From Zygnema cylindricum (taxonomy: Eukaryota > Streptophyta > Zygnematophyceae > Zygnematales > Zygnemataceae), in assembly GCA_037447655.1 (NCBI GenBank), contig JBBHKE010000674.1, positions 1 through 64,000 of the forward strand: a stretch of DNA of 64,000 bases. Reading direction: 5' to 3'. Of this stretch, positions 1,608-64,000 are shown in pieces. The position numbers and the translations under genes were made by a program. The notes beneath the pieces are model-generated. The model saw only the letters and a list, made by a program, of their open reading frames with translations. It did not search any database and had not been told where the DNA came from. Positions within the stretch are counted from its first letter, which is position 1. Each line of letters begins with the position of its first letter.

Positions 1608-1619
1608 GAGTTACAAGTT

Positions 1620-6131: not shown

Positions 6132-6211
6132 CGCATCTAGGATTTGATCTTGGTACCTGCCGTCCGTTAATTCGGCCAGTAGCCTGTAGACTTATCCATT
6201 AAGTCTAAGAC
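6132..6211 (-). other. tRNA-Arg-like block inside alpha LTR (antisense to element)
   Basis: On the - strand the block begins with an A-box-like TTAATGGATAAG and ends with a B-box-like AGATCAAATCC. The T-loop ATCAAAT is identical in all four alpha LTR copies in the window. The anticodon arm is expanded and degenerate, so this is a tRNA-derived module, not a functional tRNA gene. Confidence 0.6.
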
Positions 6212-6968: not shown

Positions 6969-7075
6969 TTGCCAGGGTGGCAGTTATTCTTGCTGAAACA
7001 CAAAGGGGTCAGGGTTATCCTAGAGGCTTCTTGCAAGTTGCAAGTTGTCCATTCTGAGGACCTATAGAGGTCTCA

Positions 7076-18540: not shown

Positions 18541-18573
18541 ATCCCCCTCTTATTGTCGGATTCGCCAAACTCT

Positions 18574-20136: not shown

Positions 20137-20165
20137 CAAAAGAAACTCCGTCTCCTTAGCATCGG

Positions 20166-23258: not shown

Positions 23259-23286
23259 GCGCTCCCTCTCTATCTCCGAAGCACTA

Positions 23287-23298
23287 GCTCCGATACCA
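23287..23298 (-). other. Beta primer-binding site
   Basis: The - strand reads TGGTATCGGAGC, two bases inside the 5' LTR. It matches the complement of the plant initiator tRNA-Met 3' end (TGGTATCAGAGC) at 11 of 12 positions. The same G variant occurs in the gamma element at 50154-50165. Confidence 0.75.
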
Positions 23299-23300
23299 AC

Positions 23301-23946
23301 TGTAGGATCTAGGGCAAAAGAGTTTTGCTTAAAATAATTCTCAAAACATAAATCATTACACAGCGGAAGCTCATAAAAGACAAGAGGAATATTCAGCCAA
23401 AAAGATTTATAAGTGTTTTTGGCCGAAGCCTCTTTACATCATGTCTCTTCTCTCTTCTCTCTCTTCACTCCTCTTTGAATAATCTCTACTCCAATATAAA
23501 TCCTCTATGATTAATTGGTTGATTAATTAATACACTGCACATGTACACTGCTGCCTATATATACTCGTTACTCTACACTAAGAGACAACAAGAAATGACA
23601 AGCAGAACTTAGCGTAGCGACGAAGTCTGTCCCTAGCTGACTGTGCACTCTTCAATGAAAGTTCCACGAAGGAAGGCGCACACGCTTCTTCCTTCGAAAT
23701 AACAAAACTCCAAACGTTGACTTAACACGTGTCGCATCACGAACACACCTGCACGCAAATTGAAACACCTGCGCACGAAACAAACAAGTGACGCGAAACG
23801 AAATAGTATGTTTCGTTCGCGGACATCAAAAGTACCGTCGCGAAATGACGTCGTACTTTTGTATGATGACGCGACAGTTCGCGTCAAACAAATTCAAGTT
23901 GGAATGACGTTTCGCGAAATGTCGCGAAAACGACAATATCCCAACA
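23301..23946 (-). repeat. Beta 5' LTR
   Basis: On the + strand it starts TGTAGGATC next to the primer site and ends CCCAACA. TATA box TATATATAGG is at 23555-23564 on the - strand. Two dyads lie in U3: CAAAAGTAC / GTACTTTTG at 23827-23861 and GACGCGA-CAGT-TCGCGTC at 23868-23885. Both dyads recur, with changes, in the other beta LTRs. Confidence 0.88.
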
Positions 23947-30255: not shown

Positions 30256-33200
30256 ATCCCTCTCTTGTTGTCTGAATCGCCAAATCCTCAAAATAAACCA
30301 AGTTTTGGTCGTCCCCTCTCAAATACATCATGTGTGGCAGCTTTCGTCAACAAATCTGCCGCCTCCTCTTTTGTCGCGTATCACTTCAATCCCCAAAAAA
30401 AATATTGTACCTCTCCAAGATCCGTAACTTTGAAGTGTAATCCAAGGTAGCGTCTCAACTCATCAATGCCCTCCAATTTGTCGCATGCCATCAAGAAATC
30501 ATCCACATAAACAGAAAAGATGATTTGGTCAATTCCTTCACCTTTCACGTAAACTCCAGAATCGGACGTAGTGCGTACAAATCCAAACTTCAATAGTACT
30601 TGATGAAGTCTCAAATACCAAGTGCATGACGCTTGTTTTAAACCATATAAAGACTTTCTCAAACGCCATACATTTCCTTCCTGCAAAGGAGAGACACCTT
30701 CCAGTACCTTCATATATATCTCTTCCTCCAACTCACCATTTAAAAACGCGGTTTCAACGTCCATTTGATGGACGTGCTTCTTCCCCATCGCTGTAATTGC
30801 AATAGTAATCCGAATTGAGTCGAACTTCACCACGGGAGCATAAGTCTCCTTAAAATCGATTCCCTCACGTTGTTGGAATCCCTTACAAACAAGTCTCGCC
30901 TTGTACTTAATTATCTCACCCGAAGCTCTAGTTTTGGTCTTAAAGACCCACTTTGCATCAATAGCCTTTTTCCCCTCCGGAAATTTCACTTCCTCAAAAG
31001 ATCGATTATCAACCACCGACTTAAATTCTTTCTCCCACACCGGTTTCCACTTACTCTCACAATCAACCGACCTCCTAGCCTCGACATAAGATTGTGGGTC
31101 GCCAGTCATATTTTCCGTAAGTGATTGCTACAAAAGAAACTCCATCTCCTTAGCATCGGAAAGAAAATAATGCGAATTTGATGCATTTTCCCCTTTTCGA
31201 TGGTAAGTGAGTTTCTCCGGTTTCTTCCCCTTTGTAATCCAAGAGCTCCTCCTAATAACTTGCTCCTCCTCCTTTTCCTCTTTCACTTCCTCGGATTCAA
31301 TTTCAATTTCTTTCTCACTCGATTTAGAACTCGATTTAGAGCTTTGAGATTTCCGAATGTTCGAAGGCACCCGGGAATCCAAAGATGCATTACTCTTTCT
31401 TTCAAATTCTATTTCAACCCATTTCCCCAATTTCTTTTTTTTTAGTTTTCACATTCGGTTCCTCATCGGATTCCGAATCTCCAATGAATGCAAAGTTCTC
31501 AATTTCACTCTCCTCATAAAAATCCAAATTTTCTTTAAACTTCCCAACGGAATTCATGGCGGATTTGAGATCCTCATGAAAATCCACATTCCGAGATTCC
31601 TCCATGGTGTGACGAGCCGGATCATATACTCGGTATAAAATCCCCTTCGCACTATATCCAATAAAAATTCTCGGCCAACTCCTTGACTCCACATAGACCG
31701 TAGCATGACTTCCCCAAATTCTCAAATGATAAACCGTGGGCTTTCTACCACACCACAATTCCTCCGGTGTTTTACTTCCGGAAACCGAAGTGAGTCTTTG
31801 GTTACAAATGTAATTAGCCGTAAGAATTGCATCCCCCCACAAAAAACATCTCTCGCCGGAGCTATGAACCATCGCACGGACCATTTACTGTAAGGTACGA
31901 TTCTTCCTCTCGGCCACTCCACTTGACTCCAGAGAATAAGGTGTCGTAAATTGATGCCTTATCCCCCACTCCTTACAATACCCCTCAAAAACAACAAACT
32001 CCCCTCCATTGTCCGACCGAATGGACTTAAGTTTCTTATCAATTTGCCTCTCGGCCATTACATGCCATTCTTTAAATTTTTCAAAGGCATCCGATTTCTT
32101 TTTCAATAAATACACCCATGACTTCCGAGAAAAGCCATCAACAATCACCAAAGTATATTTAATACCTCCAACTGTCTCGGGTTTAATATGTCCACAAAGA
32201 TCAATGTGGACAACCTCCAAAGGACTTTGCTCGATGCTTGATGTCTTTATTCGGATGGGATTTCCGAATTTGACTTCCTTTGCTACATCATCCGCATCCA
32301 TTCACCTTCTCACCAGATGCGAGGTCCAAACCCCTCATCGAAGAATGACGAATCATCTTCTTCAAACTTACCTCGAATGTGTGACACATCCGATGATGCC
32401 ATAAGGTAAGATCACCTTTTAACTCCCAAATTTGATGTGAAATTCCCTTGGTGGGAACTTTAGATTTCGGCCTCCTCCATAAGAGCCGACTATGATTCGC
32501 ATCCGTTACAACTCTTTCTCCAATTACATTCCCCTTCTCATTCCAAATCTCGATCGATCGATCACCTCTCGCAAGTAAGCTTCCACCACTCTTTTGGATT
32601 TGTGGAACGCTTAACAAATTAACCGAACCGTCCAGAATGTAAAGAGTATTTTCAAGACGATACTCCGTCGATTTCTCCTTCCCATCAATATCCCATGAAA
32701 GGAGATCAAGCCGAACTGTGCCAACCGTAGCAACCGAAATGACATGGCCGCTTGCTACCGTAATAAAATTTGGAACCGTAAGTTCCCTCATGTCATCAAA
32801 CAAAGTAGCATCCGTGCAAACATGGTGGGATGCCCCCGTATCAATAATCCACTCTTTCTCCAAGTTTCCTTCACTACTTACCGAATCAAGGGCAAGGTTA
32901 AGAACCGGATAATCATCACCTGTTTCATTACCATAGTCAAAGTAATTTGCATTACCGTAACCACGACCACCACCGCGACCTCCTCCTCGGCCGCCACCTC
33001 GGCCGCCTCTATCACCTCCTCTACCTCCTCTTCCACCTCCGAAATCTCCACTCTTTGCATAACATTGAGGACTCGTATGCCCCCACTTACCACAAAAATG
33101 ACATTGCTTATCCTTATCCGGACAAGAGGAACACAAATGTCCAAGCCGGTTACACCAGTAGCATGTCACATTGGAAAGATCCGAACGGACTTTCGGTGGA

Positions 33201-37301: not shown

Positions 37302-38367
37302 TATATTTTATGCATAGTCCTCTATAATGGCATCTGCCGAAAACCCCCCCACATTCCAATGGCATTATGTCGCAAATCTCTGAATTAAAAGGCGATTTAA
37401 CCTTGTGGCACCATCGGATGTGTCCCACATCTAAGACGAGTTTACGACGGATGATTAAAAAAAAGAGCTCAAGGGGATCAGATTTGGCGTTGGGGAAGAA
37501 AATTAACTGGTGTGAGGGATGTAGTAAATGGAGACAAATTTAAAAGCCGCATCTGGCTAAAAATCCTATGCATCGATCTTAGCACCCGCTTAATCTAGTG
37601 CATATTGATTTATGTGGGGACGTAAAATCGGAGACGATTGGAGGAAACAAATGTATTAGAGTGGTGGACGACTTCTCTCGCTTCACATGGGAAATATTAC
37701 TTAAACACAAATCCGAAGCATTTTTCCGCTTTCAAGAGTCGCATGTGATGGCTGAGAGGCAATGTGAGAGAAAACAAAAGTCTATTAGATTGGATAATGG
37801 AGGGGAATTTCTTGCTTTAGATCCTTATTGTAAAGAGTGGGGAATTTCTCACCAATATACTACATCTTACGCACTGGTATCAAATGGCGTAGCCGAAAAA
37901 AAGAACCGCATTCTTCAAGAGACGGTACAAGCCATGGTACATGGATCTAGAAAGAGCATTAATTTATGGGGCAATGCGAATTTGACGGCGAAATATATTT
38001 GCAACCAGAGGATTACATCGGTTTCGGGAGATAAAACTCCGTACGAATTGTGGTATGGCTGAAAACCTACTCTTCACCACATTCGGATTTAGGGATGCCG
38101 TGCGTCGCTTTATATTCAAGCACAAAAGAGAAAAGGTAAATTTGCATCGAGGAGTTGGAGTGGTTACTTTGTGGGATAAAGCACTAAAAGGAATCTTTAT
38201 CGAGTTTATGGTATGATTCGAAATACCATTGAAGAATCCAAGAATGTGGAATTTCACGAGGATTTATTATCCACAATCTCTCGATCGACTAAGCGACTTT
38301 CTTATTTTGATTTTCATGAAGAATTTGAAATTGGTGATCTTAATCACATTGAGGGTTTGGATTCACT
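37302..38367 (+). pseudogene. Gamma copia fragment (pre-integrase to integrase)
   Basis: The sequence follows the gamma element (48170 down to about 47140, reverse complement) without LTRs. It covers the zinc region (LWHHRMC), the integrase core with HIDLCGDV, LDNGGEFLA and NGVAEKKNR, and the linker HFHEEFEIGDL-like end. The open part at 37598-38062 holds most of the catalytic core. A stop at 38060-38062 (TGG to TGA) and several small indels break it. Both edges are abrupt, so it is a piece left by deletion or carried by recombination. Confidence 0.85.
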
Positions 38368-43626: not shown

Positions 43627-44609
43627 GTTATGACCGTTTTAACAGATAGACGTCTCAATATCAATCTGCCAACAACCTGGACCCTCCATAACAAAGAGAT
43701 GTTAGTCATATTTAACAAAGTTTGATGTGTCTACACTTTTCTAAAACGACTGGCAACTTTTAAGCAGGCTTTCTATTCAACATATTTAGTAAAAAATCCA
43801 AACTGAATTGGGCAAATCTTTATATTCTCACTATACAAAAGTTATCAACGGCAGAAAACACTATGCAAAATAATCAAAATTGGTTAAGCTTAGTGGCTAA
43901 GACAGAGCTGAGATAAAGAAAACCAACAACATAAGTTTTGAAATTAGAAAAGCAATAATATAATAATTTTGATATCAGAAAACCAACAACGTTGTATTTG
44001 ATGATAAAAAAAACCAACAATAATGCTTTGCAGTGAAAAGCCACAATTGTAATATCTTGAGATTAGAAAACCAATAGTGCAATATTTTGAGATCAGAAAA
44101 TTAATTTAGAGTATTTTAAGAACAGAAAATCAATAATATAACGTTGATTCGTTTGAGATCAGAAAATTGATAAGGTAATATTTTGTGCTTACTATAATTT
44201 TTATTCCGATTAACTAAATTTACCGAATATGACAAAGAAATATACACAGACTGTTAAAGCAACAAGTATTTTACACTCAAAATCGAGGAATAGATTAAAT
44301 GCAACGATTCTATACTATATTAAACAACTCTATACTCATACAATAATTCATGGAGTGATTTGTTTAAAACCTTCTCCCAAACTCTTAGTTGTTTGGATGA
44401 GGCTTAAGGAATGAGAATTGAATACTTTTTAGCTTCATTTCTCAAAACTTTATCTGAATAAAAATAAATATTGTTGGGGAAGTAATTTAAATGTCAGCGA
44501 CAATTGCATAGAACTACTGAACTATTCAAACAGAGAAACTTGACAAAAGGGAAAAGAAGGAAACACAAACAGCAATTCATTTTTTGAGAATGTCAACAAT
44601 TGCCATTTC
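43627..44609. other. Upstream region of the Gln-rich gene, with AT-rich minisatellite
   Basis: The segment between the ATG at 43626 and the gamma insertion is AT-rich. At about 43925-44190, units resembling TTTTGAGATCAGAAAA followed by CCAATA recur roughly every 30-60 bp with much drift. No TATA box could be chosen with confidence. It probably holds promoter, leader or intron of the gene. Confidence 0.4.
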
Positions 44610-45203
44610 TGAAAGGATCTTACACAAAAATCAGAGTGCAAGACTACAACGGAAGCAAAAATAAAACATACAGATAAGAACGAACTGTCCACAAAAGCCA
44701 ATATATTTCATAGACATTTTCTCCCATAAAAGATTTTTTTTCCTACTCCCTCTAATCTGCAGTATATAGTACAGTTACTGTGACGTCACTACTTCAAACT
44801 ACAAATCAACCCAAATCATATAGTGCGCACTAAGTGCGTACAAGTCAATACGTGTCAACAGCGAAACTCAAAGAACTGCCGGCACAACTCACACGTACGA
44901 CCAAAACTAACTAAAGACAAAACATACATACTAACCGTACACACCAAACGAAACATAACCTGGTCATAGTCAAACTGAATCTCCAAGAATCCAAGAAAAC
45001 TACAATCCACTACACGACTAAATAAAACCACTCGTGACCACTAACTTAGCGTAATGACAAATTAATCACACTAACTTAACGTAACGACAAATTAGCCAGC
45101 CGCGCGACAGACCGCGACGGCCGACTACAACTTTGACTGAAAAAGACAGAATAGTCGGCCGCGCGATAGGCCGCGACGGCCGATTACAAATTTTGACTTA
45201 ACA
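44610..45203 (-). repeat. Gamma 3' LTR
   Basis: TG...CA ends, 594 bp. The part at 45094-45198 holds two copies of a GC-rich unit (CCGCGCGA(C/T)AG.CCGCGACGGCCGA) about 58 bp apart, and 45035-45090 holds two copies of an ACTAACTTA(A/G)CGTAA unit. A TGACGTCA palindrome lies at 44781-44788, close to a TATATAGTAC patch at 44763-44772. Confidence 0.95.
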
Positions 45204-45227
45204 ATCCCCCTCTCAAACTTGTAATCA

Positions 45228-46784
45228 TCACATCAAACCTAATTTAGGTCTCCCCCTCAAAAGTACATCATGGGCCGCGGCTTTTGTCAACATATCCGCT
45301 GCTTCCTCCAACGTCGAAACATATAAAAATTCAATTTCCTTTGCCGTGACCAAATCGCGTACGAAATGCCACTGAATCCTAATATGTTTTGTCCTCTTGT
45401 GAAAGACAGGATTCTTCACCAATGCCATCGAACTCATACTGTCAGAAAATATTTTCATACAACCTATTGAAATCCCCAATTCGCCAAGTAGTTCCTTGAT
45501 CCAAATCGACGCCTTAGATGTGTGACACGCCGCCATGTATTCTGCTTCGGTTGAACTTAAAGCAACAGTTGGTTGGAGTCGTGAACTCCAAGAAACTGAC
45601 GCGCCGCCAAAAACAAAAGCATATCCAGACGTTGATTTTCCTGTGTCAAAATCTCCACCCCAATCTGCGTCACAATATCCCACGCACTCCAAAGATGTCC
45701 GTCCAGATCGGAACAATAAACCAATCTCGATTGTACCCGCAAGGTAACGAAATATCCTCTTCACGGCCTCCCAATGAATCTTTTTAGGAGCCTGACAAAA
45801 TCGGCTCACGACAGAAACTGCGGCTGAAATATCCGGTCGCGTGGCCACACTTAAATACATTAAACTTCCAACGGCCTCACGATAGGGCACGTGGACAGTT
45901 TCCTCCTCCTCAAATTTGCGATATTGTAGTTTGGAATCTAGTGGTGTCAAAACCGGCTTAGAGTCCAACATAACAAATTTTGTTAGTACTTCTTTGCAAT
46001 ATTGCGCTTGCGACAATTTAATATCTCCATTATCGTATCTTAAAACTTCCACTCCAAGAATATATCGTACGTCCCCCAAATCCGTGACTTTAAAATGTAG
46101 ACGTAGGTACTCCTTCAATTCCGCGATTTGCGTCAACTTGTCACATATCATCAAAAAATCATCCACGTAGACAGAAAATATAATTTGATCTTCCCCCTCA
46201 CCTTTTACGTAAACTCCAGAGTCTGAAACTGTTCGGACGAATCCAAATTCGGTAAGGACCTTGTGTAATCGTAAATACCAAGTCCGCGGTGCCTGTTTTA
46301 GTCCGTACAAGGACTTTCGCAGCCGCCATACCTTCCCCTCCTTCGACACTACTCCCTCCGGAACTTTCATATAAACCTCCTCCTCTAAGTCACCATTCAA
46401 GAACGCCGTCTCTACGTCCATTTGGTGAATGTGCTTTTTGCCGGCAGCGGCAATAGCAATAATCATCCTCAAAGAATCAAACTTAACAACCGGTGCATAT
46501 GTCTCCGTATAATCTATCCCCTCCCTTTGTTGAAAGCCCTTGCAAACTAGCCGAGCCTTATGTTTTACTACTTCCCCCGATGCACCAGTTTTGGTTTTAA
46601 AAATCCACTTCGCATCAATAGCCATTTTACCCTCCGGTAGGCTTACCTCCTCAAACGTACGGTTGTCGATAATAGATTGAAGTTCTCGCTCCCACGCCGG
46701 TTTCCAATGCTTCTCCCAATCGCATGATTTTCGTGCTTCCACATACGATTGTGGATCGCCCGGCTTATTTTCACATAATGATTG
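45228..46784 (-). CDS. Gamma copia reverse transcriptase and RNase H
   Basis: The frame continues from the codon after the UAG at 46785-46787 to the TGA at 45228. Counting from the ATG at 50108, the RT catalytic box YVDD is at residues 1314-1317 (VYVDDFLMICD). KARLVCKGFQQREG, HQMDVETAFLNGDLEEE, TRPDISAAVS, the RNase H blocks YCDADWGGDFD, STEAEYMAA and HKRTKHIRIQWHF are all present, and catalytic residues appear intact. The first in-frame ATG after the UAG comes only about 45 codons in, within RT, so reinitiation there would truncate the enzyme. Expression therefore depends on reading past, or splicing out, the UAG. Confidence 0.9.
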   Translation of the reverse strand, partial: QSLCENKPGDPQSYVEARKSCDWEKHWKPAWERELQSIIDNRTFEEVSLPEGKMAIDAKWIFKTKTGASGEVVKHKARLVCKGFQQREGIDYTETYAPVVKFDSLRMIIAIAAAGKKHIHQMDVETAFLNGDLEEEVYMKVPEGVVSKEGKVWRLRKSLYGLKQAPRTWYLRLHKVLTEFGFVRTVSDSGVYVKGEGEDQIIFSVYVDDFLMICDKLTQIAELKEYLRLHFKVTDLGDVRYILGVEVLRYDNGDIKLSQAQYCKEVLTKFVMLDSKPVLTPLDSKLQYRKFEEEETVHVPYREAVGSLMYLSVATRPDISAAVSVVSRFCQAPKKIHWEAVKRIFRYLAGTIEIGLLFRSGRTSLECVGYCDADWGGDFDTGKSTSGYAFVFGGASVSWSSRLQPTVALSSTEAEYMAACHTSKASIWIKELLGELGISIGCMKIFSDSMSSMALVKNPVFHKRTKHIRIQWHFVRDLVTAKEIEFLYVSTLEEAADMLTKAAAHDVLLRGRPKLGLM

Positions 46785-46787
46785 CTA
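46779..46787 (-). promoter_or_regulatory. In-frame UAG-CAA-UCA between integrase and RT (gamma)
   Basis: The - strand reads TTTTCTTTTA-TAG-CAATCA. The stop is in frame with both the upstream Gag-IN frame and the downstream RT frame. The core matches the beta copies although the surrounding proteins have diverged. Leaky stop and 3' splice site are both possible readings. Confidence 0.65.
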
Positions 46788-49700
46788 TAAAAGAAAATCG
46801 TCCTCCCTCTCCGCCGAGATAAAATAATATGAATTTTCCACATTCCCCTTACCATCAAAAGAAAGACGAGCCGGTTTCTTTCCCCTATTTTCTCGCATAC
46901 TCCTCCTCGGCTCAAATTCTTTCTCCTCCTTTGCCGATTCCTCCTCGATGACATGTGGACCACTCGATTTAGAAGACGAAGATTTCCTCGTGTCCGAAGA
47001 CATTCGGGAATTTTCGCTTCTCCAATCCCCACCAATGTTACCAAAATTTACTTTCTCCTTAATTTTACCTTTCCCCCACTTAACATTGGATGTGGATTCC
47101 GGCTCAATTTCCCAATCCGAACCCTCAATGTCATTAAGATCACCAATTTCAAATTCCTCATGAAAATCAAGATTAGAATGTCGATTAGCCGATCGAGAGA
47201 TTGTGGATAATAAGTCCTCGTGAAAATCCACATTTCTTGATTCCTCAATGATATTTCGAATCGGATCATAAACTCGATAAAGGCTCCCTCTCTCACTATA
47301 TCCGACGAAATAACCACTCCAACTTCTCGATGCAAACTTACCCTTCCTCTTTTGTGCTTGAATATAAACCGACGCACGACATCCCCAAATCCGAATGTGG
47401 TGTAGAGTAGGCTTGCGCCCAAACCACAACTCATACGGAGTTTTATCACCCGAAACCGACGTGATTCGCCGATTGCAAATATAATTTGCCGTTAAAATTG
47501 CATCGCCCCATAAATGAATACTCCTCCCGGATCCGTGTACCATGGATCGTACCATTTCTTGAAGAGTACGATTTTTCCTCTCGGCAATGCCATTGGATTC
47601 CGGTGAGTAAGATGCGGTATATTGATGAGAAATTCCCCACTCTTTACAATAAGGATCAAAAGCAAGAAATTCCCCTCCGTTATCCGATCTAATAGATTTT
47701 AACTTTCTCTCACATTGCCTTTCGGCCATCACATGCCACTCTTGAAAGCGTAAAAATGCTTCGGATTTGTGTTTAAGTAATATTACCCATGTGAGGCGAG
47801 AGAAGTCGTCTACCACCACCATGATATATTTGTTTCCACCAATCGTCTCCGGTTTCACGTCCCCACATAAATCAATGTGCACAAGATCAAGCGGATGCTT
47901 AGATCGATGCATCGGATCCTTAGCCGGATGCGGCTTTCGGATTTGTCTCCCCTTACTACACCCCTCACATCCGTTAATTTTCTCTCCCGACGCCAAGTCT
48001 AATCCCCTTACGCTTCCATTTTTAATCATCCGTCGTAAACTCGTCTCCGATGTGTGACACATTCGATGGTGCCACAAGGTTAGATCACCTTTCAATTCGG
48101 AAATTTGCGAAATAATGCCATAAGAATTTGGTTGGGATTTCGGCCGACGCCATTTTAGTCGACTATGCATAAAATCCGTGACCTCTCCTTCACCTATTTG
48201 TACACCATCAGATCGTACAATTTTTATTGTGGAATCTCCGTACGCAAGTACACTGCCGCCCGCTCGTTGAATCTGCGGTACACTGAGAAGGTTCACTGAA
48301 CCTTCGGGTAAGTACAAAACATTAGTTAATTGAGTTTGCATAACTTTTTCTACTCCACGTGAGTCCAAACTTGGTAAATCCAACCGTACAGTACCCACGG
48401 TACTTATCGAAATCACTTGTCCACTTGCGACAGTGATTCTTTTTGGTACCGTAAGTTCGCGAAAATCGTCAAATAGTGAAGCGTCGGTACAAACGTGATG
48501 TGACGCTCCAGAGTCAATAATCCACTCTTTTTCGTGTAACGTAGAACCTGCCAAAAGATCAACCGACAGGTTAAGGGCGGAAAATATTTGTGCTTCGTCG
48601 CCTCCCTCAAAGTAATCGTCACCCATAAAGTGTCCTCCTCCTCTTCCATTGCGGCCTCCACGACCACCGCGGCCGCCAAGACGACCGCCACCGCGTCCAC
48701 CGTATCGACCGCCGCCGTCTCCTCTACCGACGCCGTTTCCTCTAGCGCCGCCGCCTCCTCTACCGCCCGCTCCTCCATTTTCAGCCTTTGAATAACATTG
48801 GGGGCTTATATGGCCCCATTTCCCGCAAAAATGGCATTGACACTCCTTGTCCGGGCAAGAAGCCGCCATGTGACCAAGTTTGCCGCACTGAAAGCAAGCA
48901 ATATTGGTTAGATCTGAATATCCGGGTTGGGAAGGAGATCTCCCGGCCCTTTCGTGTCCTCTTCCCCCTCTTCCTCTCGGATTTCCACCTCTTCTACCTC
49001 CTCTTCCCCGAAGATAATTAAGATCGGGCGTTTCCGGTGTCGTCGCATTGAGGGAACCGGTCGGTTGGGGTCCCCTCGATGAACTCGGACGATTCGCCTC
49101 GGTGGATTTGAGGAAAGTAATAATCGAATCCAAAGTGTTCGAATCCCTCGATAAAAGAATGTCCCTCAAATGTATCATTTTTTCCGGTAAGGCATGGATG
49201 AAGACCGATGCCTTATCACTCTCATCGATGAACTTTCCCAAGTTTGTGAGTTGCTCGATAATAATATTGAATCTCTTCGCGGCTTCATCGATCGACTCAC
49301 TCGACTTAACCTTAAAGGAGGTATAATCGGTATAAATGTGTTGCCCCTTATTTTGAAGACTCTTTTCGAAGTGATTCTCAAGAGCCACCCAACAATCATG
49401 GGCAAATCTTCGGGTAAGGAATAGATCATGTATAGAAGTGCTACATGATTGAAATAAACCGCCGATAGCGGAAAGATTTTTCTTCGTCCACACACGATAA
49501 GCTCTCCGATCCGAGGTAGGCATCTTGTCCACCCCTTTTACCACCTTCCAAAGCCGTTTCAATTTAAATTGACCTTTGATATATTTCTTCCACGATTGAT
49601 AATTTGTACCATTGAAGATGACAATCTTGCCGGACATAGATTCAACCGGTTCGTCCCCTTCACTCCAATCATCGAGATCGGAATCATCATCGATTGGAAG

Positions 49701-50108
49701 TTTCCCCTTTCGAATAAATTCCCTCGTCTCCTCCTCATCTCCTCCACCTTCTTCCGTATCGCCGATGCTTTGATCCGGAATCGGATCTCCGAATAATGGA
49801 GATCTAGTAACACGGTTTGCCTCGGAGATTCGCTGATCCACATAACGGAAAAGACCATCCATCAGTTTTTGGAGACGATCTCCCATCGCGTCATCTTCCT
49901 CCTTCTTTTTCCCCTCATTCTCCTCTTTTTGACCGACAGGATCGATCGGAACGGTCTCCTCAAAAGTTTTGCCGGTGAAAGCAAATGGAGTTTCTACTTC
50001 CGGATCCGAAGATGATTCGGATGGATCCGGAGGATCCGGATCCGGAGGTTGCGGAAATATCGGAGAAGGCATCAAAGGAGAAGGGGTATTTTTCTTCTTT
50101 CTCCCCAT
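46785..50108 (-). CDS. Gamma copia Gag-protease-integrase
   Basis: I chose the ATG at 50108 (MGRKKKNTPSP, context GCCATGG), because the beta copy starts at the same motif; the frame is open 15 codons further up. There are 1107 residues before the UAG. Order: an acidic, Pro-rich N-terminal extension; the Gag core (IVIFNGTNYQSWKKYI); an RGG-rich stretch; zinc knuckles at 405-418 (CFQCGKLGHMAASC) and 425-438 (CHFCGKWGHISPQC); a longer RGG-rich stretch; the protease (EWIIDSGASHHVC, Asp532); the HHCC zinc domain; the integrase core with Asp746, Asp809 and Glu843; and an acidic-basic linker ending FLL before the UAG. All catalytic residues are present. It would supply particle shell, maturation protease and integrase. 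Confidence 0.92.
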   Translation of the reverse strand: MGRKKKNTPSPLMPSPIFPQPPDPDPPDPSESSSDPEVETPFAFTGKTFEETVPIDPVGQKEENEGKKKEEDDAMGDRLQKLMDGLFRYVDQRISEANRVTRSPLFGDPIPDQSIGDTEEGGGDEEETREFIRKGKLPIDDDSDLDDWSEGDEPVESMSGKIVIFNGTNYQSWKKYIKGQFKLKRLWKVVKGVDKMPTSDRRAYRVWTKKNLSAIGGLFQSCSTSIHDLFLTRRFAHDCWVALENHFEKSLQNKGQHIYTDYTSFKVKSSESIDEAAKRFNIIIEQLTNLGKFIDESDKASVFIHALPEKMIHLRDILLSRDSNTLDSIITFLKSTEANRPSSSRGPQPTGSLNATTPETPDLNYLRGRGGRRGGNPRGRGGRGHERAGRSPSQPGYSDLTNIACFQCGKLGHMAASCPDKECQCHFCGKWGHISPQCYSKAENGGAGGRGGGGARGNGVGRGDGGGRYGGRGGGRLGGRGGRGGRNGRGGGHFMGDDYFEGGDEAQIFSALNLSVDLLAGSTLHEKEWIIDSGASHHVCTDASLFDDFRELTVPKRITVASGQVISISTVGTVRLDLPSLDSRGVEKVMQTQLTNVLYLPEGSVNLLSVPQIQRAGGSVLAYGDSTIKIVRSDGVQIGEGEVTDFMHSRLKWRRPKSQPNSYGIISQISELKGDLTLWHHRMCHTSETSLRRMIKNGSVRGLDLASGEKINGCEGCSKGRQIRKPHPAKDPMHRSKHPLDLVHIDLCGDVKPETIGGNKYIMVVVDDFSRLTWVILLKHKSEAFLRFQEWHVMAERQCERKLKSIRSDNGGEFLAFDPYCKEWGISHQYTASYSPESNGIAERKNRTLQEMVRSMVHGSGRSIHLWGDAILTANYICNRRITSVSGDKTPYELWFGRKPTLHHIRIWGCRASVYIQAQKRKGKFASRSWSGYFVGYSERGSLYRVYDPIRNIIEESRNVDFHEDLLSTISRSANRHSNLDFHEEFEIGDLNDIEGSDWEIEPESTSNVKWGKGKIKEKVNFGNIGGDWRSENSRMSSDTRKSSSSKSSGPHVIEEESAKEEKEFEPRRSMRENRGKKPARLSFDGKGNVENSYYFISAEREDDFLL

Positions 50109-50153
50109 GGCGGCCAAACTAGCCACCCTTCTACACCTCAAAGGAGCACACAA

Positions 50154-50165
50154 GCTCCGATACCA
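50154..50165 (-). other. Gamma primer-binding site
   Basis: The - strand reads TGGTATCGGAGC, two bases inside the 5' LTR, 11 of 12 positions complementary to the plant initiator tRNA-Met 3' end and identical to the beta site. Confidence 0.8.
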
Positions 50166-50167
50166 AT

Positions 50168-50761
50168 TGAAAGGATCTTACACAAAAATCAGAGTGCAAG
50201 ACTACAGCGGAAGCAAAAATAAAACATACAGATAAGAACGAACTGTCCACAAAAGCCAATATATTTCATAGACATTTTCTCCCATAAAAGATTTTTTTTC
50301 CTACTCCCTCTAATCTGCAGTATATAGTACAGTTACTGTGACGTCACTACTTCAAACTACAAATCAACCCAAATCATATAGTGCGCACTAAGTGCGTACA
50401 AGTCAATACGTGTCAACAGCGAAACTCAAAGAACTGCCGGCACAACTCACACGTACGACCAAAACTAACTAAAGACAAAACATACATACTAACCGTACAC
50501 ACCAAACGAAACATAACCTGGTCATAGTCAAACTGAATCTCCAAGAATCCAAGAAAACTACAATCCACTACACGACTAAATAAAACCACTCGTGACCACT
50601 AACTTAGCGTAATGACAAATTAATCACACTAACTTAACGTAACGACAAATTAGCCAGCCGCGCGACAGACCGCGACGGCCGACTACAACTTTGACTGAAA
50701 AAGACAGAATAGTCGGCCGCGCGATAGGCCGCGACGGCCGATTACAAATTTTGACTTAACA
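50168..50761 (-). repeat. Gamma 5' LTR
   Basis: 594 bp, identical by eye to 44610-45203 except one base. It would drive transcription of the element on the - strand, toward the Gln-rich gene. Confidence 0.95.
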
Positions 50762-50766
50762 ATTTC

Positions 50767-55519: not shown

Positions 55520-56406
55520 TGTGGTCTCCATTGACCCACAAAATGCCCCTTCCTCTTTCTCAATGAATAGGTGCCACCCTGGCACACAAGTATTTTGACC
55601 ACCCTCACCCCTGTGAGGACCCGACTCCCGTGATGCAATCGTAAAAAGAATCATTGAATTTGCTCTCTTGAGTAGTAAGTTATTGCTGGTCAAAAATGAC
55701 CTTTAGATATACTAGGTCTCTTAGGGAGAGGTACCTTAATTCCACTAAGTCCTCGTTTGCCTACTCACAACTACCTACTACTAGATCCTAGTTCAATAGG
55801 AACATTGTATAGTACAAGAAGGTACAATGGATGAAGTACTTGTTATACAGAATTTGTACGACATGACCTTCAAGGTGACGTTTGTCAAATCGGGAGCCAT
55901 GGTTCCTCCTCCCATCTTCAGTGGTATCCAATAACGTGGCGCCACGTGGCATTGAGTGACGTTATCTCCAAAGGCCGCCAAAAAGGTCATTCCGCGTGGC
56001 GACTACAACGATGGGTCCGATCAAATATATTTACACGGTTCGGATTCGCGTATGTATATGAATTGTTTTACATGCACGTCGTCGCCAGTTTGGGGTGAAT
56101 TAACCGTTGCATCATTGTTTATTTTTTTATCAAACCTGATACGTGTATCATTTATTTAACGACATAATGGATAAGGCATCATGTTATACGGGCTTCCCAG
56201 GATCCAGGATCAAATCATGGCCAGGGTAAAATTTTGGTAAAACGCCATCTACTTCAATCTGCCACCTTCTGAATAAGGCAGCAGCCATGGCTTTTCTTTG
56301 ATCCTCTCGATCTCTTTTTAGATTCTAACTAAAATAGAGAAGTGAACCATTAATTACCTCTTCTTCAAACCTAGAAAATACTCAAAGAAAGCCATTGATT
56401 TCTACA
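55520..56406 (-). repeat. Alpha 3' LTR
   Basis: On the - strand it starts TGTAGAAATCAATGG after the polypurine tract and ends CCACA. It is 887 bp and contains the antisense tRNA-like block at 56159-56226. Confidence 0.75.
56159..56226 (+). other. tRNA-Arg-like block inside alpha LTR (antisense to element)
   Basis: ATAATGGATAAGGC (A-box region) and CCAGG-ATCAAAT-CATGG (T-arm, four of five pairs) are present at near-tRNA spacing. The T-loop is identical to that in the other alpha copies. Confidence 0.6.
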
Positions 56407-56429
56407 CTCCCTTTATCTTCTAGTCACCT

Positions 56430-57909
56430 TTTAATTTGAGACCACTTCTCCTTGCAGAAAATTAACTTAGGAGAGGGCATAGGTTTAGTCATCATATTGG
56501 CTACCATCTCACTATCTGGTCTATACTCTAAACTGATTAATTTGTTTTCTACCTTCTGGCTAACAAAGTTTAGTCTAATGTCCATGTTTTGGCTTTGAAG
56601 TGGTGTTTAAGATTGGCATCGATTGCAATGGCTGCCTGATTTACAAAAAAAAATATTCACGCCACTTTTAAGATGAACAAGCTCACCAAGCAAAGACTTG
56701 ACCCACATCAACTCTTTTACAACAAAGCAAGAAGCTATATACTCAACCTCCATAGTGGACTGGGCAATTACCTTTCGTTGTTTACTGCTCTAACAACAAG
56801 CCCCATCTCCCACATAAAACACATATCCAGAGGTATACCTCCTCATACAAGCATCCCCATAACTAGCATCACTCCAAGTGGTGATGTCGCTATTGTCCCC
56901 TCCGAAATGCAACTATAGATCCCTAATCCCTATCAGATATCTAAGGACCCTCTTAGCTGCCGCCCAATCATTCTTAATGGGAGAATTCAGACTCCTAATT
57001 AGCACTCCTATTGGTGCAGCTAAATCCGACCGGGTACAATTTATAAAGTAGATTAAGCTGTCATCTACTTGCCTGTAAGGAATAGCTTTCATGAACTTTT
57101 GCTCTTCAGAACCTAATTCATCATTCAACATTATAACTCCCTCTTCCACACTCCCTTCACTTCCCTTCTTTAGCTCTATTGGAGTTGTACAACTATTAGC
57201 CTTTTCCATTTGAAATTTCTCCAGCATGTTTCCAATGGCTACCATCTAAGTTAATCTGATTATTTTCCTATCTCTGTCCCTAAATTCCCAAAATGTACTT
57301 TGTCTCCCCCATATCTTTCCTTTCAAATCTACCTTTTAGATCCGTTTTCAGTTTATTAATTTTATCCATAGATTTATTTTAGATAAGCAAATCATCAACA
57401 TAAATAGCAAAAACAATAATTCCTTTGTCATCTTCAAACAGATAAATTGAGTGATCTAGGCTGATCTGAATGTATCCCAAACCTGTAAGAAACTCATCGA
57501 GCTTCCTATTCCGTTGGCGGGGCGCCTGTTTCAGTCCATACAGAGATTTGATCAATCGACATACCTTGCTCTCCTTCCCTTACTCCACAAACCCTTCGGG
57601 TTGCCTCATAAAAATCTCCTCTTCCAACTCTCCATGCAAGAAGGTCGTTTTGATGTCCATTTGATGCATTTCCATGTCTTTCGTTGCTGCCAGACTGACA
57701 AGTATCCGGACGGAGGGAAATTTGACGACCGGAGCAAATGTCTCCTCGTAGTTAATTCCCTCTTTATGATCAAATCCTTTTGCCACTAACCGAGCCTTGT
57801 AGCGCTCAATGGTGTTATCCGGGTTAAGTTTTAGTTTAAATACCCACTTACACCCGATTAGTTTATGGTCACGTAGACAGTCCACAATTTCCAATATATT
57901 TGCCGCCAT
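56430..57909 (-). pseudogene. Alpha copia RT and RNase H, broken
   Basis: RT begins near 57905 and reads LKLNPDNTIERYKARLVAKG and VHQMDIK-like HQMDIKTTFLHGELEEE in the open part to 57580. The YVDDLL box near 57395-57412 is intact but is followed by a stop. RNase H pieces run from 57245 (MLEKFQMEKANSC) to about 56450, with stops and missing bases. It is inactive. Confidence 0.8.
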
Positions 57910-59560
57910 TCAGTCATTCCCATTACTATTGTCTACCTGGTTTCTCTGATGATAGTTCATCGCCTCACCATAAGTTTGGGGTTTATCGAGGCGAGACAGT
58001 TTGGTTACCTTGTTTTTAGCTTGTTTTTTTTGCAGTCTTTTGCTGCTTCTCCTTCCTCCTTCAAAATTTGATGCCGGAATAGATGGTTGTTGTGGATTCT
58101 TTTGAACAATTTTGACTTCTCCCCTATCCCTTGATTCTCGATCTATTTCCACCATGTCTTTCGCTTCTAGTTGAGTTATCACTTGAGGTTCCACGGCTGA
58201 TTCTTTCTTTATCTGATTTGTACCTGCAAGGTTTTCATCTCTTTGAAAATCTTGGTAGTTAGGAAAATCAAAGTCATAAGAACTTTTTGACTCAAATCTG
58301 ATTTTGACTAACTTTGTATGCTTAAAGGGATCTACAGATTTCCCTTCATCCATAATTACCAGGTGCTTAACTAGAATTTTGTCTTCTTTTCTAAGATCCT
58401 AAACACTACACCCTTTTACATCCTCATAATATCCTAGCAAGTATCCTAGTTTTCCTTTAGGATCTAACATCCAGTTTGATCGATCTGTATCTAGACTGAA
58501 CAGTATACGACCGAAAACCATTAAGCGTGATACATCTGGTATTTGGCCAGTCCATCTCTCATAGGGCGTTTGTCCTTTGCTTTACTCCATGATGTTGTAC
58601 TCCATCTTTTCTAAAAAAATCCTCAAACTGGTTACTCCCACTTGTTTAAGTATGCTCAAACTTCCCTCCATTATCACTTCTCACTCTCTTGATTGGGGTT
58701 TCATGGAGTTTCTCACTCCATGCTTTGTATTGCTTAAATTATTTTGGGGCTTCTGATTTATATTTCAGAAAATATACTCTTAAATATCGAAACCAATCAC
58801 CAGTGATGGTCATCATAAACGTTTTATCTCAGGGTGACAGCACTCTTGCTGGTCCCCATATATCTGTGTATACTAAATTCAAAACTTTTTCTCCTAAATA
58901 AGTGGCTGCTTTTGGGAAGGGTAACATGTGTGCCTTACCTTGAGCACATCCGCTTCAATCACTTGGATTCTCATTTTCTCCAAACTGAATTCCTTTCACT
59001 TTGCCCATCTTGTTCATTTCTTTTAACTAATCTAAATGCACATGTCCAAGCCTCTTATGCCACAACATTATATCATGAAAACCAGAATAATAAAGTTTTT
59101 TTCTTCTCATTGCTTAAAATCAGCCTAAACATCCCTTGGCTACCTTTTTCAGCGGTGAAATATAAACTTCCTCCTCAAAACTAGCAGTGAAGACTCCTTT
59201 CCTTCTGCTAGTTTCAAAACCTTTATCATCTAACAGTGATGTTTATATGAGATTTTTGTTCAACTCAAGAATAAACAACCATCAAAAGAATGTAACTATG
59301 GATATTTTTCCTTTCATTAATACTTTCAGATCCACCGATCCTACCAAAGTAGCAGTGACTATCCTCTCATCCCCATTCACTATCTCTCCGTTTGGATTCT
59401 TTCTCATTTTGGTGAACATGTGTTTATCATTACACATGTGCATATAAGCACCTGAATCCACAATCCAACCTGCTTCACCTGTCAACCCCTCGAAGGTACA
59501 TTTTTGTTTTTCGTGGAATTTCGACCTCGGTCTTCACCTCCATCTCCTCATCCAACAAAA
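57910..59560 (-). pseudogene. Alpha copia protease and integrase, broken
   Basis: The protease is read at 59485-59282 (GWIVDSGAYMHMCNDKHMF). The pre-integrase and integrase regions at about 59140-58380 are recognisable only in short pieces. The linker (58353-57910, MDEGKSVDPFKHTK and EGGRRSSKRLQKKQ) is open and ends at a TGA. It is inactive. Confidence 0.75.
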
Positions 59561-60590
59561 GCTCATTGTCCTCGGTTACCTCCTCACGTACCTACGTCAT
59601 AAGAGATTTATTTTTTCCTTTCGTAGGTTTAGTCTGCCCGTCTTTTAACCGGAGTGCAGCTAGTTTAGAGCACTCTGCCATATAGTGTCCGAGTTTCTTA
59701 CAAAAGTGACACAACCCCTTAGAAACCCCCGGTTTCGGATTCATCATACTGATTTTTTTGTCCACTTCCTCCATAACCTCGAAATGGTTTCCTCGGATCC
59801 TTGTTCCTCCAATCTGTCCCAGCTGCCAAGGCTGGTCCGCTCTTTCCTCCCCTCCGAATCTCTATCGTATTCTCTCGAACGAGATTCATCCCTACCACAG
59901 GGTTCCAAGTCCACCTGGAATCTGGTACATCTTGTACGCGGTTAACTATATTTTCATAATCATTGGGTAACTTTATGAGTAGACAGTTAACCTTTCTCTT
60001 TTCGGTTTCTACCTGTCCAACACTCTCTAACTCCATAAAAAGTGTAGCAAGCTCATTACAAAAATCTAGCATCTTCCCTCTATATGCATTTTTTTTCTGA
60101 TCTATCTGTTGTTGCTGAATTGTTCCACTTCGATAAATTTCTATGAGTGCCACCCATAGATCAGATGTCATTTCTACTTGCAAATGAGGAGATACAAGCC
60201 CTTGAGTGAGATGGTAGAGAATGAAGTGCTTTGCCGCCATATTATTATAGTCGCATGTATCAATATCATTATCCACTTTCCTTGAAATAGGTGTCATGAA
60301 TGATGACCCGGTTGCTATCGGTGTTGCCATCGGTTTGATTGTCTCCTTTTCTTTCCCCTTTTCCATCTCAATGCTTCCCCCATCCTTACTTTCCTCCGGT
60401 GGAGCTGGATGTGATTTTTTGGTAAACCTAGTCCTAGCAAACCCTGGAGGAATGCCCAGGTTGGATGGACGCCTCACTTGTCCACTCAGTATCCCCCAAA
60501 AACCTTTTCTCGCGCAGAGCTCCTATCATCATACTCTCCCAGTATATGAAGCTAGTTCTATTAAAGATGGGTACCGTAGAGGGTGCGCCT
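59561..60590 (-). pseudogene. Alpha copia gag, broken
   Basis: VPIFNRTSFIYWESMM near 60565 is the Gag N-terminus; its ATG has become ATA. The main open part (60477-59719) covers the helical Gag region (FILYHLTQGL, LLIKLPNDYENIVNRV). The zinc knuckle at about 59745-59690 is complete (CHFCKKLGHYMAEC), the only intact alpha knuckle in the window. Frame changes separate the parts. Confidence 0.8.
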
Positions 60591-60928
60591 ATAACCTGCA
60601 TTTCTCTAGTCTCCATTGACTCACAGAATGGGCAACCAATGTAAAGCCTCTGGGATAATTTATGCCCTTTCCTCTTTCTCAATGAATAGGTGCCAACCTG
60701 GCACACAAACATTTTGACCACCCTCACCCCTGCGAGGACCTGCCTCCGCTGAGCCAATCGCAAAAAGAATCATTGAATTTGCTCAAGGCCAATCGCAAAA
60801 AGAATCACTGAATTTGCTCCCCTAAGCAGTAAGTTATGGCTGGTCAAAAATGACATTTATATATACAAGCTCTCTAAGAGAAAGGTACCTAAATTTCACT
60901 AAGTCTTGGTCTGCCTACTCACAGCTGT
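60591..60928 (-). repeat. Truncated alpha 5' LTR
   Basis: Matches 55520-55770 in the 3' LTR, including the GGTCAAAAATGAC word, and ends abruptly at 60928. A short direct repeat (CCAATCGCAAAAAGAATCA twice at 60755-60810) is present. Confidence 0.75.
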
Positions 60929-60984
60929 TGTTCAACAACCACCGTTGCAGACGGAGAACCAGCAGTAGTAGTAGAAGTAGACAT
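60929..60984 (-). pseudogene. Start of a delta copia gag, truncated
   Basis: The - strand ATG at 60984 begins MSTSTTTAGSPSATVVVEQQ, a plausible copia Gag start, and is cut after about 19 codons at the junction with the alpha LTR. It lies downstream of the delta LTR. Confidence 0.45.
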
Positions 60985-61034
60985 GAAAAACAGCAGAAAT
61001 TATCAAAGTACCTACTCAACAGCCAACTTTGAAC

Positions 61035-61921
61035 TGACACAAAATATAACGCAAAACCCCAATATGTTTCAAATTTTATACAGTGATACACAATAGAGTA
61101 AACGGTAAATTCCCAAAATTTCAGCCCAAATGACCCAGTAAACCATAAGATATGATGTCTAGAAGTTTCCCAAAAACAACCCTTAGAAAATCATATTCCA
61201 AATTTGGATACTACAAAATTGGCTAAGTCCTAATTTATATACTCACAGTGTGTATCTACTGATCTACACTAATTCGGGTAACCGTTACTATGGTTATTAT
61301 CCTGATTAACGACAAAGCATCCTACCCGTACGTCATTGTACCTCAAAAACCCTAATTACTAATTTCTAAAAACCTGATTAATAGAAAACTATTTTATATC
61401 ACACTAAACGACAAACTAATGTTATTCAAATATTTACAAAAATTGAAACGTACACAAAACGTTCTAACCGTACACAAAACGTTCCAAATGCTTAGTCAGC
61501 GGTGACCGCTAAAGTCCAGCCGAATGTGGTCGTGTAATACGAATCACCTGAGTGCTTCGTCACTTGTGGTCCCTCGTGAATCATGCTTATGGTCCCAGGT
61601 GAATCGCGTCCGTTGGAACAGATTCGATTGACGGTGGAACCGTCGATCTGTATCATATGTTTCCGGAATACTCGGGACAGATCTCGTTCGTCCGATCATG
61701 TGAATCGCATTGTCAACTTTTTGACACGTATGCTTGACTGTCGGCGCTACTCCGAAAAACCTGCATACGTTCTTTTGCCAACATGTGTCCCTGCAAAAGT
61801 ACAATACACTCTACTGTACCTTTTGCTACTCTAACACTAATTAAGGTAAGTATTACTAGAAAAAATATCCTAAGTTATTTTAACCCCTACAAACTGAAAT
61901 AAAGATTTATAAATTCCAACA
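61035..61921 (-). repeat. Delta LTR (inner boundary tentative)
   Basis: On the - strand it starts TGTTGGAATTTATAAATC directly after a polypurine tract (TTTAGGGGAG, 61922-61931). The other end is guessed at a CA near 61035 because gag begins at 60984. No primer site could be confirmed. It is flanked by RNase H on one side and a gag start on the other, so it serves two internal regions. Confidence 0.5.
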
Positions 61922-61934
61922 CTCCCCTAAATCT

Positions 61935-62382
61935 TTAGACTCAGTTACTCTCTTAGTCCAATAGCATGTCTGCAAAACTGTAACTTAGGAGCAGGAAGGG
62001 CTTTTGTTAACATGTCAACCACCATCTTCTAATCTGGTAAATAACATAATTTAACGACTTTTGCAAGTACTTTTTCTCTAACAAAATGAAGTCTAACATC
62101 CATGTGTTTGCTCTTAAAGTGATGGCTAGGGTTAGAGGCAATTGCTATGGCAGCTTGGTTGTCACACCATATAGCTTGAGGGCAAGTTTGCATATACCGA
62201 AGTTCCAGTAGAATGGACTTGACCCATAGGAGCTCCTTCAGGGCGAAAGCTGCTGCCATATATTCTGACTCCATTGTGGATTGAGCTGTAACCTTTTGTA
62301 ATTTGCTACTCCAGTAGCAAGTTCCATCTCCAATCTTCAGTACGAAGCGGGTCGTAGATTTCCGGCTTGGCATGTCCCCATA
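61935..62382 (-). pseudogene. Delta copia RNase H, 3' end
   Basis: The frame reads YGDMPSRKSTT, CYWSSKLQKVTAQSTMESEY, WCDNQAAIAIASNP and the HMDVRLHFVREK block, which is RNase H of a copia polymerase. A TAG near 62029 interrupts the last segment before VVDMLTKALP. The fragment is cut on its 5' side by the gap at 62383-62392. It differs clearly from alpha, beta and gamma. Confidence 0.8.
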
Positions 62383-62627
62383 NNNNNNNNNNGCTCTTTT
62401 CCAAAACCCCCTATCACTCATCAGCTCACCCCGCAGGTAGTTCAGAACCTCAGGGAGGTCCCAAACCTCCTCGTCTAAGTCTTTCTTTCGTCTAGGTAGA
62501 AGTTGCCTCCTCTGTTTCCTACCTCTCCACCACCTGTTTCGTAGCCTCTTCCTCTGCTGGAGTGGTTACCGTTGACCAAGTTGTAAGTACAGTGGATAAG
62601 ACTACTTGCTCCTCTTACTATCACTAT
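62383..62627. other. Assembly gap and unassigned stretch
   Basis: Ten N at 62383-62392, then about 235 bp with no recognisable feature. It may be linker sequence of a copia polyprotein on the - strand (EEEATKQVVER is readable), but this is weak. Confidence 0.45.
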
Positions 62628-63082
62628 GGACGTACCACTTCAGTACATCTCTATGAGAGCCATCCAAAGATCGGATGCCTTTTCTACCTGCAAATCAGGA
62701 CATGCAAGCCCTTGAGTAAGATGGCGGAGGATGAAGTGCTTTGCCACCATATTGTTAAATTCCCAGGTATCACTATCATTCTCCTCGTTCATCAGAATAG
62801 GTGACATGAATGTTGAACCAGTTGCCATTGGTGAGGTCGTCTCCTTCTCCGATGCTTTGTCCACCACCTCTCCATCCTTTGTCTCCTCCGTTGAAGATGG
62901 ATCTGCTTTCTTTCTGAATCTGCTCCTCCAAACCCTGGAGGGACTCCAAGACTTGATGGACGCCCCACTCGACTACTCACTATCCCCCAAAACCTTTTCT
63001 CGCATAGAGCTCCTATCATCCTACTTTCCTAGTATATGAAGCCAACTCCATTGAATATAGGCACCCTAGATGGTGGGCCCAT
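62628..63082 (-). pseudogene. Alpha copia gag, 5' part
   Basis: From the ATG at 63082 the frame reads MGPPSRVPIFNGVGFIY and then a stop (Trp codon TGG to TAG). A later open piece (62867-62640) carries FILRHLTQGLACPDLQVEK. Similarity to copy 1 stops at about 62628. It is a truncated and broken gag. Confidence 0.8.
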
Positions 63083-63094
63083 AACGTGCAACTC

Positions 63095-64000
63095 TGAGAC
63101 CTCCATAGGACCTCTGAATAAGCAGCTCACACGAAGCCTCTAGGATAACCTTGACCCTTTTGTGTTTCAGCAAGAATAAACGCCACCCTAGCAAACAAAA
63201 ACTCTGACCACCTTCACCCATATAAAGGCAAGAATCCCTTGAGTCAATAGCAAAAAGAATCTCTGAATTTGCTCCCTTGAGCAGTAAGTTATGGAGGGTC
63301 AAAGCTGACCTTTTTGTACAGAAGCTCTCTGTGAGAGAGGGTCCAATCTACCAATTTTTCTAAGTCCTATCTCTCTCACAAACTCTATCTACTGGTGAAC
63401 AGCACCAATCATATTGCACTGCCATATATAAAAGTACAACTGCCGGTGTACTTTATGTACGGAATTTGTACGATATGGCTTAAATGTCGACACATGTCAT
63501 ATCCAGATTCGGTCCCGTAAATCTCGGAGATGCTGCAATCCAACGTAATCGTGCCACGTGTCATCTGATGTGGCGATGACCACAAACCGCCGAGAATCTC
63601 TTCCGCGATCTCGGCTTTCTTTTCGGCCGTCCGATTGAATGCAAATTTCAATCGTAGCCGTCATAAATGCTTGTGCGGTATTTGTTTTCGTAAAAGAAAC
63701 AAAATGCGCGGTACTTTTTTCTTGTCCATACCGAAATCCGTATGTTTACATAACGGGATCTATCTAACCGTAAACATCTGCCGTTAAATGAATTTTCCTA
63801 CGTGGTAACATATGAATACATATCAAACCCACTAGTATGTATTGGAACTTTTAGACTTAACGGCTAAGGCTACCGGCTACCGGCGCTTTGACGGTCGGTA
63901 GGTACCAGGATCAAATCCTGTCACCGACATACTTCTTTTAGTAAATAAACCTTCCTATCTGTAAATTAACTAATATATTTCCCGTAAACCTCTGGATAGC
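63095..64000 (-). repeat. Alpha 5' LTR, running off the window
   Basis: Aligns with the shared LTR at 5906-7075 (for example the GACACGTGGCAC, GACATGTGTCGACATTTA and GTACACCGGCA segments) and carries the tRNA-like block at 63852-63928. The outer end lies beyond 64000. Confidence 0.75.
63852..63928 (+). other. tRNA-Arg-like block inside alpha LTR (antisense to element)
   Basis: TTAACGGCTAAGGC (A-box region) and CCAGG-ATCAAAT-CCTGT (T-arm, four of five pairs) are present. GACTT at the 5' side and ACCGAC at the 3' side weakly resemble an acceptor stem. Confidence 0.6.

Follow-up and report, generated by a model that had tools for sequence, protein, structure and literature searches.

Why should a young and complete retrotransposon carry a stop codon in the middle of its polyprotein? 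The question is raised by gamma, a Ty1/copia element at positions 44610-50761 of a 64,000-nucleotide stretch (the window, by which we mean this whole stretch) that forms the start of contig JBBHKE010000674.1 of Zygnema cylindricum (assembly GCA_037447655.1); its sense strand is the minus strand, on which the features described below lie unless stated otherwise. As a rule, copia elements encode a single polyprotein, and the source of the excess of Gag over the enzymes is an old question. The gamma frame, which opens with an ATG at 50108 and closes with a UGA at 45228, is broken once, by a UAG at 46785-46787 that stands between integrase (IN) and reverse transcriptase (RT) and is followed by CAAUCA (46779-46784), an instance of the hexamer CARYYA. 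The stop and hexamer are conserved, and the frames that flank them are open and under selection; the stop is genuine and old, has been selected, and lies in a type I readthrough context. We consider it likely, on the comparisons given below, that UAG and CARYYA together form a programmed leaky stop of the tobamovirus type (type I), which would limit RT and RNase H (RT-RH) relative to Gag, protease and integrase (Gag-PR-IN). Among the mechanisms weighed here, readthrough appears the best supported, with splicing its only serious rival.

The stop between integrase and reverse transcriptase in the window

The coding layout of gamma comprises 1107 codons, the UAG and 518 codons, followed by the terminal UGA (1626 codons in all), so that the initial annotation was right to take the UAG for the sole break in the frame. 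The first open reading frame (ORF1, 46788-50108) has Pfam matches to Retrotran_gag_2, zf-CCHC, Pol_BBD, gag_pre-integrs, rve and SH3_retrovirus, and matches in the Protein Data Bank (PDB) to nucleocapsid zinc knuckles, the integrase of prototype foamy virus (PFV) and 7z0h_W, a chain named Integrase that we take to be that of Ty1. The second (ORF2, 45228-46784; 518 codons and UGA) encodes the RT-RH and matches PF07727 (RVT_2, E 1e-78); a PDB search with the RT returned no match. The protease and RNase H of gamma are presumptive assignments, made from familiar motifs only. The order of the Pfam domains (gag, zinc knuckle, Pol_BBD, rve and then RVT_2) is that of Ty1/copia elements, as are the TG...CA long terminal repeats (LTRs), the short target duplication, the tRNA primer site and the polypurine tract. 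The LTRs (5' LTR, 50168-50761; 3' LTR, 44610-45203) are 594 bp each and differ at a single base, marking gamma as a young, complete element, and the target duplication ATTTC is found at 44605-44609 and 50762-50766. The primer binding site TGGTATCGGAGC (50154-50165), read from the sequence, resembles what we take to be a site for initiator tRNA-Met. Plant copia lineages that rely on complete tRNAs are described as primed by tRNA-Met (PMC6317226). The RT-RH frame stops just short of the polypurine tract (45204-45214, read by eye) and the 3' LTR. As first noted, the RT frames of gamma and of beta copy 1, a member of a second copia family in the window, both end in UGA; the gamma frame terminates in two consecutive UGA codons (45225-45230), in contrast to the lone UAG in its putatively leaky context, and that of beta copy 1 in a single UGA. 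Scans of the window with Rfam and for tRNAs gave no matches.

The nine bases of the stop and hexamer, TAGCAATCA, occur three times in the window (46779-46787, 20128-20136 and 31122-31130) against 0.43 expected, a count that none of 100 shuffles reached. All three occurrences are IN/RT junctions with homologous protein in frame on either side, and the earlier claim that both beta copies carry the same nine bases at the same place is thereby confirmed. In beta copy 1 the UAG lies at 20134-20136 and CAAUCA at 20128-20133, ahead of an RT-RH frame of 519 open codons (18574-20133) that matches RVT_2; in beta copy 2 the UAG lies at 31128-31130 and CAAUCA at 31122-31127, ahead of a truncated RT frame of 248 open codons (30381-31127) with the same match. 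On the sense strand, a stop followed by CARYYA is found once in gamma and once in beta copy 1, each time at the IN/RT junction.

The proteins that flank the stop have diverged at length under selection. The RTs of gamma and beta copy 1 show 270.1 synonymous differences over 339.7 sites and 163.9 nonsynonymous ones over 1214.3, and their fourfold-degenerate sites are identical in 42 of 157 cases, which is near random. Over the first 53 codons past the UAG, a stretch that precedes the first in-frame AUG of gamma, the proportion of synonymous differences (pS) is 0.82 and that of nonsynonymous differences (pN) 0.16 (Fisher P 4e-12). Because pS lies far above pN, the RT has been selected as a protein although both families carry the UAG.

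Conservation of the stop and hexamer across the genome

We searched the window's own genome (352.8 Mb, 2689 contigs) for further copies. The pattern TTTCTTTTRTAGCAATCA, allowing up to 2 mismatches, occurs at 377+372 places, as against 62+55 for the reversed pattern. Gamma- or beta-like residues flank the stop at all 28 exact places that we inspected (8 + 20 loci), some of which carry a frameshift or stop nearby; these 28 were selected by the motif itself, unlike the set used from here on. That set was drawn with a stop-free query, RT residues 21-260, which gave 151 matches and, as the nearest copies, the best 150 of 21306 candidates scored, namely gamma and beta copy 1 of the window and 148 fetched places. 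After removal of three places with a non-homologous junction (L071, L073 and L164) and addition of gamma and both beta copies, 148 aligned copies remained, of which 147 had been listed by the stop-free query and one, beta copy 2, was added; the sampled copies share 79% or more RT identity with gamma. We computed a tree with the 18 bases surrounding the stop left out and divided it into seven clusters at a chosen cut of 0.6, on which the clusters depend; each cluster was represented by the copy with the fewest stops and gaps.

The UAG stands at the exact expected position in 125 of the 148 fetched places before alignment, with many of the others offset by small indels. In the aligned set, the codon is UAG in 138 copies, UAA in 5, AAG in 3, UAC in 1, UGG in 1 and UGA in none; CARYYA is kept in 135 of the 148, and 125 copies, including all seven representatives, have both. 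UAG is the usual state in every cluster (55/63, 39/39, 15/15, 14/15, 13/14, 1/1 and 1/1). The ten copies without UAG are single tips of the tree; two of them, L061 (AAG) and L103 (UAA), group as sisters. With youth measured by branch length, 39 of the 40 copies with a terminal branch of at most 0.01 have UAG, so that a sense codon in most young copies, named at the outset as the result that would tell against readthrough, did not appear. Five clusters, including one of the two single-copy ones, have CAATCA as their most frequent hexamer; a sixth has CAATTA (14/14) and the other single-copy cluster CAACTA. Codon +2 thus alternates between Ser and Leu among clusters, with UCA, UUA and CUA all fitting CARYYA.

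Upstream of the stop, 17 usable pieces (20 were read; L202, partly masked, and L208 and L209 were left out) comprise 3 open frames and 14 that are broken at various points. The open Gag-PR-IN frames, one in each of three clusters, end at the UAG after 1101 (L203), 1082 (L192) and 1086 (L198) codons, with no stop ahead of it, and the respective RT frames are open over 518, 517 and 518 codons. The Gag-PR-IN proteins of intact copies are about 55-58% identical between clusters over 1072-1123 aligned residues. Fourfold-site identity among the seven representatives is 0.18-0.50; three pairs lie at 0.43-0.50 and saturation is therefore not complete everywhere. Across the 21 cluster pairs, the first part of the RT has pN of 0.08-0.15 and pS of 0.67-0.95, and the median pS/pN amounts to 0.81/0.12 downstream of the UAG and to 0.80/0.23 over the last 40 codons upstream. 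As pN is low against a near-saturated pS on each side, both sides have gone on being translated in a single frame with the UAG in place.

Against this background of divergence, UAG-CAA-UCA ranks first of 210 three-codon windows in between-cluster identity; the initial annotation had asked whether these nine bases are more conserved than the neighbouring codons, and they are. Of 212 codons ranked singly, codons 0, +1 and +2 come 9th, 4th and 54th, and the three ahead of the stop (-3, -2 and -1) 69th, 105th and 108th. Only one of 68 four- or sixfold-degenerate columns has the same wobble base in all seven representatives, and it is codon +2, where the residue is S or L; the wobble is invariant in three of 70 twofold columns, including the CAA at +1. 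These comparisons point to a nucleotide-level constraint centred on the CARYYA hexamer, which readthrough predicts and coding alone does not. Conservation beyond coding need is apparent in the genome-wide set and not in the gamma-beta1 pair alone.

Proposed readthrough, its rivals and known systems

Several observations weigh against readthrough. The base immediately 5' of the stop is not conserved. In the comparison restricted to gamma and beta copy 1, 26 of 940 other six-codon windows equal or exceed the identity of the best stop-containing window, and the window alone is therefore no proof of excess conservation of the nine bases; at same-codon shares of 0.88 (Q) and 0.42 (S), unchanged CAA and UCA codons are unremarkable given the residues. 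An upstream TTTCTT seemed more surprising than CAA and UCA in that pair, an order that the genome-wide set reversed. No RNA structure beyond that of shuffles was found 3' of the UAG (z -1.27, -0.77 and -0.67); type I readthrough sites are not known to need one. Copy L050 of the gamma cluster, whose terminal branch measures 0.005, carries AAG in place of UAG and a continuous frame across the junction, so UAG is not in every recent copy. Finally, the pyrimidine-rich tract TTTCTTTT (46789-46796), one base upstream of the UAG in gamma, belongs to the most pyrimidine-rich of 633 eight-nucleotide windows over the seven representatives; in 146 of the 148 copies, seven or more of the eight bases are pyrimidines.

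This tract speaks for the one alternative that we take seriously, in which the UAG would be the end of a long, regulated intron with a donor in the leader or in gag and the RT would have an mRNA of its own. The combination of eight pyrimidines and NTAG is present in six of the seven representatives (the other has 7 of 8 pyrimidines), the site ranks by pyrimidines in the top 3 of 94 YAG sites of gamma and the top 6 of 79 of beta copy 1, and splicing is known for BARE1 and Drosophila copia (PMC3735527). The individual bases of the tract vary between clusters, and much of its pyrimidine richness comes free with the coding, as Phe-Leu-Leu and Phe-Ile-Leu, the usual peptides here, are specified by pyrimidine-rich codons. 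Among the 30 GT dinucleotides common to gamma, beta copy 1, L192 and L198, the best candidate donor matches the consensus at only 5 of 9 bases in the copy where it is weakest, and splicing predicts neither the conservation of CARYYA nor the invariant A of codon +2. Of the 3' splice site that the initial annotation had offered as a competing reading, the pyrimidine tract is thus real, but a conserved strong donor was not found, and we regard the long intron as unlikely.

A second possibility, that the RT is made by reinitiation or internal entry after termination at the UAG, draws on the in-frame AUG 18 nucleotides past the stop in both beta copies. In gamma, as had been claimed, there is no such codon soon after the UAG: the first in-frame AUG comes 159 nucleotides past it, beyond 53 codons that are under selection, and the nearest AUG, at +8 nucleotides, is out of frame and runs straight into a stop. 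Reinitiation does not predict CARYYA either, and we judge it highly improbable.

Slightly less probable again is a short intron like that of Ogre, a few hundred bases running through the UAG and spliced from some transcripts to fuse the frames. It shares the splice-like tract with the long intron and could use donor-like GTs 264 (gamma) and 268 (beta copy 1) nucleotides upstream of the UAG; these stand at non-aligned positions, and no GT is common to the seven representatives in the roughly 400 nucleotides upstream (where L154 is partly masked). The would-be intron is slightly more U-rich than the downstream stretch in gamma, but less U-rich than the upstream stretch in all three window copies. 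A coding signature in the last 40 codons upstream of the stop, where pN is lower than pS in every one of the 21 cluster pairs, further disfavours the short intron.

The least probable of the alternatives treats the UAG as an inherited lesion of dead copies or of elements mobilised in trans, a notion that the many decayed copies and the 5 of 148 with sense codons might encourage, but purifying selection on the RT and the integrase tail has persisted while the clusters diverged to near saturation, each with UAG as its usual state, and an unselected triplet would rarely survive where fourfold identity is 42/157, as between gamma and beta copy 1. Reassignment of the stop codon in the host was also considered and rejected: gamma has one UAG in 1626 codons, and L192, L198 and L203 have none earlier.

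Under type I readthrough, most ribosomes would terminate at the UAG and release Gag-PR-IN, in which the integrase would already have its own C-terminus. A minority would read the UAG as an amino acid and yield a Gag-PR-IN-RT-RH fusion, which the protease of the element could then cut. The RT-RH would in this way be rarer than Gag, protease and integrase, and its packaging would be tied to Gag. The initial suggestion that a leaky stop keeps the RT scarce gains support from the conserved UAG and CARYYA; what we infer from them is that readthrough takes place, and with it the rate, the residue inserted, the packaging and the dosage, including the low amount of RT. CARYYA after the stop is described as driving readthrough in tobacco mosaic virus (TMV), and in mammalian cells UAG and UGA are described as far more effective than UAA in this context (PMC4132726).

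The proposed readthrough site of gamma resembles that of tobamoviruses in having the same UAG and hexamer consensus (one cluster has CAAUUA) with no following structure found; it differs in belonging to a copia retrotransposon, between integrase and RT, and in its unconserved preceding base. SIRE1, a Sirevirus of soybean, is likewise a copia element with an in-frame stop, described as read through between pol and an envelope-like gene (PMC2829016); unlike it, the gamma stop splits pol itself ahead of the RT, and no SIRE1-type arrangement of pol and env is seen in gamma, where the RT-RH ends near the polypurine tract and 3' LTR. In-frame stops that divide parts of a polyprotein are also reported from murine leukaemia virus (UAG with a pseudoknot; PMC2194720, PMC3441728), Tca2 of Candida (UGA; PMC2194720) and VdLTRE5 of Verticillium (UGA, said to be without CARYYA; PMC3441728), all of them after gag and not, as in gamma, after integrase. 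Ogre, with splicing after GAG-PROT (PMC6317226), and BARE1, with splicing at the end of gag (PMC3735527), are plant LTR elements that, as gamma may do, regulate which parts of the polyprotein are made; they do so by splicing, and the gamma-type copies have, beside an acceptor-like tract, no conserved strong donor that we could find. According to a survey of plant LTR elements, groups have either a single ORF or two, with GAG or GAG-PROT as the first (PMC6317226). The open-licence literature that we searched yielded no description of a conserved stop at the IN/RT junction; on that literature, the CARYYA motif is already known and its placement there would be the new part.

With less confidence than in readthrough as such, we think it probable that this copia clade has shifted the recoding point from gag/pol to integrase/RT, so that protease and integrase would be made at the level of Gag, the integrase C-terminus would be formed by termination, and only the RT and RNase H would be metered, by a leaky stop of the tobamovirus type that has been retained through near-saturated divergence. 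If so, one copia lineage obtains its excess of Gag through a leaky stop in the style of plant viruses at an unexpected place, integrase may be needed in abundance with RT as the limiting enzyme, and a natural, genome-borne family of type I sites, with variants, becomes available for probing the rules of the motif.

Other copia sequences

Beyond the host genome, protein scans of genome_contigs gave no relatives in a first pass and five distant copia loci in a second (L001-L005, of which L002 and L005 share one contig). They lie in contigs labelled as prokaryotic, from an archaeal metagenome-assembled genome (MAG), a Trichormus MAG and Robertmurraya kyonggiensis (a contig whose name gives a coverage of 0.317), and are probably eukaryotic contamination of these assemblies; four have no in-frame stop up to 300 residues upstream of the RT and the fifth none up to 246. 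Protein scans of viral_contigs found no relatives, and a pattern scan hit nine contigs there, none of them related (best E 0.82).

Within the window, a distant, decayed copia family is represented at 1413-7083 and 56369-63340, in opposite orientations, with the longest matches 74-78% alike; neither of these two elements has a stop at the place homologous to the IN/RT junction. A gamma-like integrase fragment at 37305-38363, on the plus strand, has 85% DNA identity and ends short of the junction. The two beta copies are 92% identical across 3.2 kb of their interior. In beta copy 1 (17845-23946), a frame of 1090 codons spans most of Gag-PR-IN, and the LTR pair is 88.5% alike, yet the RT frame is open over its 519 codons; the LTR flanks, read by eye, have no matching target duplication, and the LTRs are possibly mosaic.

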